35,432 nucleotides of DNA from Rhodobacter sp. (GTDB lineage Bacteria; Pseudomonadota; Alphaproteobacteria; Rhodobacterales; Rhodobacteraceae): assembly GCA_020251025.1 (NCBI GenBank), contig JADCDI010000042.1:1-35432 (forward strand), given 5' to 3'. The notes below the pieces were generated by a model. That model had not been told where the DNA came from. It saw only the letters and a program-made list of their open reading frames with translations, and did no database searches. Below are positions 1 through 35,432 of the stretch, in pieces; position 1 is the first letter of the stretch; every line of letters starts with the position of its first letter. The translations under genes and the position numbers were made by a program.

Positions 1-310
1 GGCCATCGCCGCTGCCATAGCGCCACGCTGGCATCAGGACCGGCCGGGGGCCAAAGCCCCCGGCCAGCGCCCGCCCCGCCCCCGGCGGGCGCTTCCCGCC
101 CGCCGGGTCGGGCGCTGGCCTCTGTGTCTCCCGGACCAACCGGTCTACAGGGCACCGTCCCGAGCGGGCGGGGGAAACGCGGGTCGCGTTTCCTGTTCCC
201 GCCCGAACGGGCGAAGGCACCATCACCGCTTCTCTGGCAGGGGCAATCGCCCCTGCCACAGCGTCCCGCTGCCCCCTCGCCCGGCCGGGGCCAAAGCCCC
301 CGGCCGACAT
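1..310 (-). repeat. Dispersed GC-rich repeat, copy A
   Basis: Non-coding repeat that, read on the minus strand, matches the right end of the window (copy D) over about 300 bases, with most positions identical by eye. It holds three perfect or near-perfect hairpins: arms TGGCAGGGGC at 235-244 and GCCCCTGCCA at 249-258; GGAAACGC at 173-180 and GCGTTTCC at 186-193; and a GC-rich stem around 40-65 with loop CAAA (TTTG on the minus strand). The GC-rich stem recurs near 280-306, so the unit repeats with a period near 240 bases. Long open frames across it, such as 124-786, are by-products of its composition. Confidence 0.85.
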
Positions 311-550
311 CTGCCGGGGGGCGGGCCGGGGGCTGGTCTGCGTCATGCTTGCATGATGGGTCCTTTGCAGTGTTGGTTGCCAAGCCAGCGGGCAAGCGCG
401 GTGCATTTCCTTGCCCGGCCGGAACCGCAGGCCACTTCGGCGGCATCAGGATGATGTTCCCACCCGGCACGCGGGGGGATGCTGTTTCGGCACCTTGTCG
501 GGGGCCCGCCGGCGACGAAGCGTCAACCCCCCCGCATCCGAGCGAAATGC

Positions 551-6839: not shown

Positions 6840-6860
6840 CAGGGCTCTGTTGCACAAATC
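6840..6860 (+). repeat. IS left terminal inverted repeat
   Basis: Exact reverse complement of 7914-7934. Confidence 0.9.
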
Positions 6861-6906
6861 GCCTGAGGGGATTCATCTGGTGAATCCCGTGTGGCAGCTG
6901 GACTGC

Positions 6907-7964
6907 ATGAGCAGACCGACATCCCCGACCGACAAGACCCTGACCTGGCCGGCGTACGACAAGGCGCTCAAGCGCCTTGGCTCGCTGACGATCTGGTTCG
7001 ACCCCACCATGACCTGGGAAGCCGCGCCAACCTGCAAGCGTGGCCGTCAGCCCGGATGCAGCGACGACACGGTCCAGACCTGCCTGACGATGACGGTGTT
7101 GTTCGGGATGGCGCTCAGCCAGACCACAGGGTTCGTCGAGAGCCTGCTTCGGCGGATCGGCCTGGACTGGGCGGTGCCGGACTTCAGCACGCTGTCGCGG
7201 CGCCACAAGACCCTGAAGGTGACCATCCCCCTGTCGCAGCCCGGACGGCCCGCTGCATCTGCCGGTCGACATCGAGCCGGTAAGCGCCACCGGTTCGAGC
7301 GAACCGGCGAGGGGGCATCAAGGTTGAGGGCGAAGGCGAGTGGAACGCCCGCAAGCATGGCGGCTCCAGGCGGCGGATCTGGCGCAAGATCCACATCGGG
7401 ATCGACGGGAAGACACTGGAAATCCGGGCGGCCGAGTTCACGACCGGCGACATCGGTGATGCACCCACGCTGCCCGGGTTGCCCGACCAGATCCCGCCGG
7501 AACAGGAGATCGCCAGCGTCACAGCCGACGGTGCCTTCGATACCCGCAAGTGCCACGACGCCATCGCCGCCCGAGGTGCCGCCGCAATCATCCCGCCCCG
7601 CAAGAACGCCAAACCCCGGAAACCTGACACCGCCGGTGCTGTCGCGCGCAACGAAATCCTGCGCACATCGAAGCGCGTGGGTCGAACCATCTGGCGACGA
7701 TGGAGCGGGCACCACCGCCGAAGCCGCGCTGAAACCGGGATGCACCGCGGCAAGCTCCCCGGGCAGCGCCTGTCCGCAAGAGACTCCGACCGTCAGCTTG
7801 CAGAGGTCCAGGTCCGTATCGCCGTCCGCAACGGCTTCACCGCCCCCGGCACACCCATTACAGGGTTCGCAGGACAGGTCTGTCCGGGAAAAGGGGACGT
7901 CAGACCGTCACCAGATTTGTGCAACAGAGCCCTGCCGGACGGCCCTTTGAACAGCACATTGTAA
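6907..7964 (+). pseudogene. IS5-family DDE transposase, frameshifted
   Basis: The expected protein can be read only by changing frame twice. Frame 1 from 6907 gives MSRPTSPTDKTLTWPAYDKA through DWAVPDFSTLSRRHKTLKV. A small indel near 7230-7246 moves it to a short stretch GPLHLPVDIE. From about 7314 a third frame gives GIKVEGEGEWNARKHGG, TADGAFDTRKCHDAIAARGA and GRTIWRRWSGHHRRSRAET, then continues past the usual end and through the right inverted repeat to a stop at 7964, so the original stop also seems lost. DDE candidates are the Asp of PVD, of TADGAFD, and the Glu of RAET. The break at the first Asp is caused by roughly 35-40 extra bases (about 7272-7312) centred on the palindrome CCGGTTCGAGCGAACCGG (7290-7307). 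It is inactive as it stands. Confidence 0.85.
7914..7934 (-). repeat. IS right terminal inverted repeat
   Basis: Exact reverse complement of 6840-6860. The junction with the truncated methyltransferase is directly outside it. Confidence 0.9.
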
Positions 7965-16890: not shown

Positions 16891-17150
16891 AACGGGTGCT
16901 GAAACAGCAATCCGACCGCTTGCCTGCCGGGAAAATCCTTCCGGGTCCGGGGAAAGGGATTGCAACGGGGGCGGGTGCTGGCCGGGGCTGTTGCCCCCCG
17001 GCCGGGCAAGGGGCAGCGTGGCGCTGTGGCAGGGGCCATCGCCCCTGCCGGGATGCGCAAGGCGCGCGCAGGCGGATGGGTGCCCGCTTTCCGGCCGGGC
17101 AGCCCGTGCTGCCGGAATCTTTCCGGCACCCGGTTCAAGGGCATACTCCG
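16891..17150 (+). repeat. Dispersed GC-rich repeat, copy B
   Basis: Intergenic repeat related to copy C (30690-31010) along its whole length. It opens with a small hairpin (TGCTG 16897-16901, CAGCA 16905-16909), then shares TTGCCTGCCGG and TCCGGGGAAAGGGATTGC with C. A GC stem follows near 16979-17004, then the hairpin GGCAGGGGC (17028-17036) with GCCCCTGCC (17041-17049), then GGTGCCCGCTTT-like sequence. The two middle hairpins are shared with copies A and D, while the outer parts are specific to B and C. It lies between the 120-aa protein gene and mtnP. Confidence 0.8.
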
Positions 17151-30592: not shown

Positions 30593-31572
30593 CAAGGCGG
30601 GTCTGATCCTGCCGCTGTCCGGTCAATGATGACGGCGGCGGTCCCATCCCGGAAGGCAGTACGGCTGCTTTCCTGATCAGGTGCGGCTTCACAGGCTGCT
30701 GAAACAGCAGTCCGAATGCCTGCCTGCCGGAAGATATTCCCGGTCCGGGGAAAGGGATTGCCCCTTCGGGCGGGACCCTGCCACAAGGGGCGTCTTCACC
30801 CGCACCGGCGGAAGGCCAGCGCCCGCCGGGGGCGGGGCGGGCGCTGGCCGGGGGCTTTAGGCCCCCCCGTCTGGACAAGGATCGGCCGTGGCGCTGCGGC
30901 GGGGGCCATGGCCCCCGCCGGGACAAACAAGGCGCGCGGGGGGGAAAGGTGCCCGCTTTGCGGTCAGGCAGCCCCTGCGACCGGCAGCTTTTCGGCACCC
31001 TGGTCAGGCTGTGCCAGCCCCTTATCGCCTGCACGGGTGATTTGCTGTCCAGGGCCGATTGGGGAAGTTGCCGATTGCAAAGCCGGACATGGCGGTGCGG
31101 CGTGGTTTCCGGCTTTTCGCCGGAACGGAAGGGGCGGCTTTGCAGCACCTGCTTCCATGCGGCCATTGAAGCGCCCGGCCATGCCGCCGGTCTGGGGTGA
31201 TCCCGGCGCGGTCAGGCGGTGCCCGCTGGCAGGCCCGGCGCAGAGCCTGGCGAACCCGTGCGCACCCGATGCGGCACGCTTGCGCCAGCTACACCACTCC
31301 ACGGGACAGCATCGAAGTCCTTGCCGCAGCATGTCGGAAGCGGTGCGCTGAAGAGGCCCTGCAGGATCGCCGCACGCACCTTCGGTGTTGCCCCAGCCTG
31401 CTTGTGAAGATCGGTCCGCATCCTCGCACCTCATTCCCAATGTCCCTCAGGATCGATCTTGCCATGAAAAGCGCCGATCACCGGGCAGAAATGTGATCAT
31501 CCGGGATGTGACAGGTTTCCCCGGCGGGTGAACTGGCCGCAGGCCAAAAGGGGGGCAGACAGCCCCGCCCCG
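30593..31572. other. Gene-free stretch holding repeat copy C
   Basis: About 980 bases between tldD and truA without a recognisable gene. Repeat copy C occupies 30690-31010. The rest (31011-31572) shows no domain or start signal that supports a gene; long frames there have the residue bias of antisense GC-rich DNA. Confidence 0.55.
30690..31010 (+). repeat. Dispersed GC-rich repeat, copy C
   Basis: Related to copy B along its length. It begins with a hairpin (CTGCTG 30696-30701, CAGCAG 30705-30710), shares GCCTGCCTGCCGGAA-like and GTCCGGGGAAAGGGATTGC sequence with B, and carries an extra module (GGCCAGCGCCCGCC to GGGCGCTGGCC) also seen in A and D. The central hairpin here is GGCGGGGGC (30898-30906) with GCCCCCGCC (30911-30919). 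Relative to the other copies both arms changed together (A to G, T to C), keeping the stem paired. Confidence 0.8.
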
Positions 31573-35030: not shown

Positions 35031-35432
35031 CCCGCAGCGGGCGCTGGCCGGGGGCTTTGGGCCCCCGGCTGGCAAAGGATCATCGTGGCGCTGTGGCAGG
35101 GGCGATGGCCCCTGCCATTGAAGCGGTGCGGGTGCTGTCATCAGTTCGGGCGGGAACAGGAAACGCATTGCGTTTCCCCGCCCGTGCGGAACGGTGCCCC
35201 GTAAAGCGGAAGGTCCGGGAAAGACAGAGGCCAGCGCCCGACCCGGCGGGGGCGAAGCGCCCGCTAGGGGCGGGGCGGGCGCTGGCCGGGGGCTTTGGCC
35301 CCCGGCCAGTCATGATGCCAGCGTAACGCCGTGGCAGGGGCGATGGCCCCTGCCATTGGAGCGGTGAGGGTGCTGTCCTCAGATCGGGCGGGAAAGTGAA
35401 GGTACCTTCGCCCGTCCGGGCGGGGACAGGAA
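35031..35432 (+). repeat. Dispersed GC-rich repeat, copy D (tandem, runs off window)
   Basis: At least 1.6 tandem units with a period near 240 bases. The GC stem recurs at about 35043-35071 and 35282-35309, the latter a perfect 12-bp stem with loop TTTG. The hairpin TGGCAGGGGC recurs at 35094-35103 and 35332-35341, each with a GATG loop. GGAAACGC (35159-35166) pairs with GCGTTTCC (35170-35177). The plus strand here matches the minus strand of 1-310. The last unit is cut by the window end. Confidence 0.88.

Follow-up and report, generated by a model that had tools for sequence, protein, structure and literature searches.

Capped arrays of a 238-base hairpin unit in Rhodobacter, a probable MITE-like mobile element whose ends often lie directly behind stop codons

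The window analysed here is the whole of one contig (G000:C69), 35,432 bases in length, from a Rhodobacter genome assembly of 3.32 Mb in 131 contigs. It carries copies A to D of a GC-rich, hairpin-forming repeat (Table 1); copies A and D are arrays ended by the contig ends, and B and C are complete but short. The initial annotation had described a tandem unit with a period near 240 bases at 35031..35432 and the same unit inverted at the window start. The data showed that positions 35037-35156 recur at 35275-35394 with 84% identity and a spacing of 238 bases, which bears out the tandem GC-rich unit of copy D and corrects the exact period to 238. Positions 1-176 and 186-326 hold copy D sequence in inverted form (arms 88% and 76% complementary), so the inverted unit is present as well, as the two minus-strand units of copy A. 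The repeat does lie where it had been placed, but most of it is found elsewhere (1-497, 16892-17133 and 30692-31002), together with caps outside the unit. The tip of copy A at 497 faces the 5' end of a gene for a PEP-utilising enzyme, 104 bases away. The right flank of copy C (31003-31200) is related, at 73-77% identity, to several diverged sequences in other species (G001:C15 and C45, G005:C59 and C113), and copy C thus seems to lie inside another repeat.

Table 1 Features of the hairpin repeat in the window
Feature	Position	Strand	Evidence or remark
Copy A, two units (1-232, 235-426)	1..426	(-)	nhmmer profile matches, inverted arms; truncated at the contig's first base
Copy A left cap	416..497	(-)	cap profile match, tip position
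Copy B, short complete element, 242 bases	16892..17133	(+)	unit and cap profile matches
Copy B parts	left cap 16892-16968; core hairpins 16968-17049; right cap 17054-17133	(+)	
Copy C, short complete element, 311 bases	30692..31002	(+)	unit and cap profile matches
Copy C parts	left cap 30692-30774; core 30793-30918; right cap 30927-31002	(+)	
Copy D, partial first unit	35036..35117	(+)	nhmmer profile match
Copy D, full 238-base unit in the rotation used here	35118..35355	(+)	profile matches, folding, stem counts
Copy D, further unit, start only	35356..35432	(+)	matches 35356-35400 and 35396-35432; truncated at the contig's last base
Hairpin H1 of copy D full unit			stems GGGCGGG, GGAAACGC
Hairpin H2 of copy D full unit			GGCCAGCGCCCG...CGGGCGCTGGCC
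Hairpins H3 and H4 of copy D full unit			H3 GGCCGGGGGC...; H4 GGCAGGGGC...

The full unit of copy D (35118-35355) had a folding energy of -150.8 kcal/mol, whereas 200 dinucleotide shuffles averaged -120.4 +/- 5.4 (z -5.6); the reverse strand of the unit gave a z of -5.2. The stem GGAAACGC/GCGTTTCC, which has the loop ATT in copy D and GGGTC in copy A, had been cited as a case of stems kept while loops differ. Over 142 aligned units its arms showed a mean identity to the commonest base of 0.968 and 0.971 and its loop 0.596, in agreement with that description. Stem pairing was tallied by script over 142 near-complete units: of 7,448 stem cells, 6,875 were Watson-Crick, 148 G-U and 142 A-C. Watson-Crick cells exceeded column shuffles in six of six stems, by a shuffle control that ignores relatedness, and compensatory cells were few (54 across the six stems, 31 of these within one stem). 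The further claim of selection on structure is weakly favoured by the conserved stems and the Watson-Crick excess, and is held back by the relatedness-blind control, the few compensatory cells and the parity of G-U and A-C.

Several readings of the unit were rejected. Since G-U and A-C mismatches are equally common (148 and 142), nothing points to a functional RNA strand, and stem changes were without strand bias. A coding origin was discarded because the period of 238 is 1 mod 3 and the arrays sit between gene calls, as expected of the non-coding intergenic repeat first proposed. In keeping with the view that it is not a named family, the window gave 0 Rfam matches at gathering score, and the REP/BIME and CIR features examined here were lacking. 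In a relaxed Rfam search of six loci every match lay below the gathering score, and a known Rfam RNA was accordingly rejected. The hairpin core of another genus (L060 of G250, 1372-1448) reached 54.7 bits against the mir-605 model, whose gathering score is 98; we take this as a chance match of a GC-rich hairpin.

Sequence outside the arrays was also conserved. The arrays start at unit position ~15-20 and mostly stop at 233-234 unless a contig end intervenes, and the composite element consists of a left cap (~84 bases), n units and a right cap (~80 bases), with inverted-repeat ends CAGGGTGCTGAAA. Its tips are inverted, reading CAGGGTGCTGAAA... at one end and ...TTTTTCAGCACCCTG at the other. The initial annotation described the unit, the interior of this element, and missed these inverted-repeat caps, which often abut stop codons. 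Cap profiles seeded on copies B and C, by which the element end is defined here, matched 36 left and 40 right caps in 61 loci of the own genome (G000). The 38 elements with both ends measured spanned 228 to 1,029 bases, and 36 of them pair one left with one right cap. With up to 2 mismatches, TGACAGGGTGCTGAAA occurred at 82, 47, 85 and 99 places in the four array genomes and at 2, 4 and 2 places in G002, G003 and G006, with 0-3 for the reversed control. Allowing one mismatch, the tip motif occurred in 58 of 395 genomes of the wider family; two of the 58 belong to this genus and the others have few matches at most, and the reversed control of the motif matched in 15 of the 395; perfect tip matches in G003, G071 and G206 came without a cap and were set aside as chance. 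Outside their right caps, L105 and L125 resemble each other over a stretch (GCATTTGGGGCTYTGATATC..GGTTTCGATTGAA) that may be a second small repeat. The window also contains, at 6840-7934, an insertion-sequence-like open reading frame (6850-7950, 366 codons), which we presume to be IS5-like, within inverted repeats CAGGGCTCTGTTGCACAAATC... of ~30 bases that are 87% complementary; the CAGGG tip of this feature resembles the tip of the hairpin-array element.

We then searched for the unit more widely, as had been proposed, and the prospect that no other copies exist was refuted by many copies in the own genome and its relatives. The own genome gave at least 112 BLAST matches to the unit (40 of 317 candidates scored), and the core pattern GGGCGCTGGCCGGGGGCTNTNGCCCCC, with up to 3 mismatches, occurred at 261 places (129 forward, 132 reverse; reversed control 0). 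Among the matches listed, 169 pattern places formed 115 clusters, none of which mixes strands and 46 of which start no more than 420 bases from their contig's first base. The 61 own loci held 174 unit matches scoring 25 bits or more, which make up 76 head-to-tail arrays of 1 to 5 units each. With 40 candidates scored per genome, unit matches numbered at least 106 in G000, 104 in G001, 94 in G004 and 97 in G005; G006 had one weak match, and G002 and G003, of the same genus, had no unit match, so that arrays are found in 4 of 7 genus genomes. At least 50 of 395 family genomes matched the unit at E 1e-8 (two candidates scored each), two of the 50 belonging to this genus; many of these matches cover the H2-H3 hairpin core only (query positions ~88-154), and in G018, of another genus, a unit is accompanied by a partial left cap. 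When genomes of named species were scanned for CAGGGTGCTGAAACAGCANTCCG, the 11 stretches recovered belonged to just two metagenome assemblies of Rhodobacter sp., JADCEL and JADCEF. No match was found at E 1e-5 among 72,556 plasmid and 50,697 phage records, and an origin from either was rejected on this ground.

Both ends of the window, positions 1 and 35432, lie inside arrays, and its limits are likely assembly breaks at the repeat. With the window ending in arrays and 46 of the 115 clusters near contig starts, assembly breakpoints are likely explained by the repeat; arrays are not the sole cause of short contigs, because G006 is fragmented (250 contigs) without them.

Genes were called with a purpose-written codon-score script. 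The 76 arrays lie in gaps between gene calls, except that one, in L127, overlaps a weak call (score 21) and one, in L119, touches a call by 2 bases. Where both neighbours were called, 11 of 22 arrays lay between convergent genes, compared with 8 of 83 array-free gaps. The median distance from arrays to genes was 135.5 for 3' ends and 356 for 5' ends, and array strand was independent of gene strand (32 and 28 of 60 3'-facing ends).

Tip positions were measured for 149 ends in loci of G000, G001 and G004, regions picked for holding units or tips; 96 ends face a gene 3' end, 44 face a 5' end and 9 are without a gene call of score 25 or more. Among the 96 3'-facing ends, 31 start immediately behind the stop codon (distance 0: 14/43 in G000, 6/33 in G001 and 11/20 in G004), and 3 more at -1. 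The next nearest stand at 6, 8, 8, 8 and 12, and in one case the gene call overlaps the end by 39; the nearest of the 44 5'-facing ends is 13 bases away. The 34 stop-adjacent ends (distance 0 or -1) amount to 29 distinct ones by gene tail, because some sites are common to several species. Three elements, L110 in G000, L262 in G001 and L296 in G004, have both ends on the stops of convergent genes. The stops look native, since the protein, counted from the match start, has an unchanged length in 6 of 6 G001 orthologs without an element after the stop. This comparison took in 13 gene ends, all 13 at distance 0 in the own-loci measurement; L107 and L089 had no ortholog among the loci compared, and L124 had one in G001 alone, with tip-like sequence there too. 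Absence of the element after the six G001 stops was judged by eye, and at one of the six, L110 left, the G001 sequence begins CGGGGTCTGG, which is somewhat tip-like.

The stops at distance-0 ends were TGA in 20 cases, TAG in 10 and TAA in 1, while those of the 352 gene calls in the measured loci were TGA in 268, TAG in 57 and TAA in 27; TGA is therefore not favoured at stop-adjacent ends (20/31 vs 268/352). Ends off stop codons show an outer C-T-G-A consensus, with an outer triplet TGA in 38, TAA in 6 and TAG in 2 of 114, and the 5'-side ends have an outer TGA in 10 of 44. Since ends off stop codons, including those on the 5' side, show CTGA, the tip or the target has a CTGA preference of its own. 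TAG is common on stop-adjacent ends (10/31) and rare among stop triplets elsewhere (2/46). At 1-200 bases, 22 of 40 3'-facing ends are in frame with the gene, in similar shares with a boundary stop triplet (11/19) and without one (11/21). A DNA motif by itself can hardly account for ends placed base-exactly behind native stops of three kinds. Such placement offers a testable case of a selfish repeat that reaches high copy number without harming genes. In the open-access papers searched, at the level of titles and abstract openings, we found no description of this 238-base repeat, nor of a bacterial element so placed on stops.

Filled and empty sites were found between species. For the left gene of L110, G005 has an identical CGG TAG and no element, and gene X of L357 in G000, a 635-codon open reading frame ending in TAG and followed at once by a left cap, has no element there in G001, G004 or G005; both comparisons are one-sided. 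Two G004 elements have flanks that are contiguous in G001 and thus give two-sided empty sites. At one, G004 has CTG TAG followed by 339 bases and G001 reads CTG TAA; the other stands at two convergent stops, and its joint is approximate because the flanks are only 71-75% identical to G001. As regards loss of a target hairpin of the IS1272 kind, the joined flanks and the empty site around the joint were of equal length at one G004 site and differed by 4 bases at the other. The flank comparison took in 6 of 12 prepared flank pairs and the element comparison 8 of 38 pairs. Target duplications were sought in ten pairs: GGTTCAA stands on both sides in one (copy B), with no consistent pattern. The outer triplets at element ends are inverted, TGA and TCA.

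We consider it probable that the family of capped intergenic hairpin arrays is mobile and MITE-like, a non-autonomous element served in trans by a putative transposase. This reading draws on the anatomy of cap, array and cap, the number of copies, the tandem order on a single strand, the stop adjacency, the filled and empty sites and one rearrangement, described below. The element likely lands where it is harmless, and would also shuffle gene order. The enzyme would act at the CAGGGTGCTGAAA ends; a CTGA-type target preference, together with loss of insertions inside genes, would leave elements on stop codons, and the arrays may have grown by repeated insertion or an early burst rather than by recent local duplication. 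A search for a transposase with the element's ends, covering the transposase family Y1_Tnp, found none; one facing pair of ends lies 1.3-6 kb apart in the loci, with three gene calls between. The prediction of a pure TGA target fails, as TGA is not enriched at stop-adjacent ends. A CTGA preference with selection would place elements on stops, but it does not explain the frequency of TAG there (10/31 vs 2/46). On that unexplained TAG excess rests a different and rather improbable account, in which integration recognises stop codons as such, landing behind TGA, TAG or TAA and on both sides of convergent pairs at no cost of a residue to the host, perhaps coupled to translation or the message 3' end, and builds the capped hairpin arrays there.

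Other explanations dispense with present mobility. The arrays might be BIME-like structural DNA, kept at gene ends for gyrase or IHF binding or for bidirectional termination, with mobility in the past only. Such a role would suit the enrichment in convergent gaps (11/22 vs 8/83), the independence of array and gene strand (32 and 28 of 60), the closer position to 3' than to 5' ends of genes (medians 135.5 and 356) and the conservation of stems without strand bias; we nevertheless think it unlikely, since it would not need exact abutment on stop codons and G002 and G003, of the same genus, do without arrays. That the arrays are transcribed and their ordered hairpins act as structured RNA appears very improbable. 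The folding z of -5.6 and -5.2 and the Watson-Crick excess in 6/6 stems would be in keeping with it, but neither strand is preferred (G-U 148 vs A-C 142), array orientation is random relative to genes, and the window holds no Rfam family at gathering score.

The ages of the copies bear on a last alternative. Mean unit identity was 0.847 within the same array (31 pairs), 0.846 between different arrays (2,972 pairs) and 0.840 for G000-G005 unit pairs. As these values are alike, sequence divergence suggests that most copies probably predate the split of those species and that the arrays are not recent local duplications. Satellite-like expansion in place, by slippage or unequal recombination and with the caps as mere conserved flanks, would account for the head-to-tail order and the variable unit number (1 to 5 per array), but the comparison of units within and between arrays disfavours it, more than 100 clusters are dispersed, many with the same caps, and empty sites exist; we give it hardly any credence.

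Like MITEs, the element is short and non-coding, has inverted-repeat ends and many, mostly intergenic copies, and is present or absent between species (PMC10969869). Its terminal inverted repeats are the CAGGGTGCTGAAA sequences, inverted at both ends; a transposase gene inside is lacking and copies are many and dispersed (one weak gene-call overlap among 76 arrays; 115 clusters); and filled and empty sites exist, one-sided at L110 left and gene X and two-sided at two sites in G001. MITEs are typically AT-rich (PMC10969869), whereas this element is GC-rich, it is filled by an array of long hairpin units, its tips lie exactly behind stops, no target duplication was recognised, and a search covering Y1_Tnp gave no parent insertion sequence; the excerpted text of the MITE review (PMC10969869) does not mention stop codons. 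With the IS1272/IS1182 family it shares inverted-repeat ends and may share palindromic targets and the lack of a target duplication (PMC5678879), but IS1272 encodes a transposase and takes the place of a stem-loop at the target (PMC5678879), and the hairpin-array element has no transposase gene inside. Intergenic palindromes in high copy recall REP and BIME sequences (PMC2817692), and for some REPs the distance to a stop codon is 1-20 bases (PMC12306157). BIMEs alternate in orientation (PMC2817692), in contrast to 238-base units all on one strand (0/115 clusters mixed) with inverted-repeat caps. The RAYT domain (Y1_Tnp, PF01797) had no match in 7 of 7 genus genomes, with the control matched in 5 of 14, and REP/RAYT membership was rejected for want of PF01797 in the genus and of alternating orientation. 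CIR, a repeat of Caulobacter and other alphaproteobacteria, is likewise intergenic and alphaproteobacterial (PMC10969869); membership was rejected because CcrM sites (GANTC) are depleted in the units, with 3 in 30,968 unit bases (0.10/kb) vs 302 in 354,679 own-loci bases (0.85/kb).

Recombination between copies of the proposed mobile element would reshuffle the chromosome. Two flanks that adjoin a single element on either side in G001, G004 and G005 are found ~11 kb apart and mutually inverted in G000:C27, and each separated flank still adjoins an element cap. From gene X as far as the left flank, G001, G004 and G005 are collinear with G000:C27, and the sequence past the second element lies elsewhere in them; one inversion does not explain all these joints. 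The flanks of copy B map to different contigs in G004 and G005, a result of limited weight because contigs break at arrays. If recombination between copies drives rearrangement, the family would be a motor of gene-order change in the clade. The gene end left of the L144 element has two matches in G001 within ~1 kb (G001:C2:21492-22630), a local duplication.
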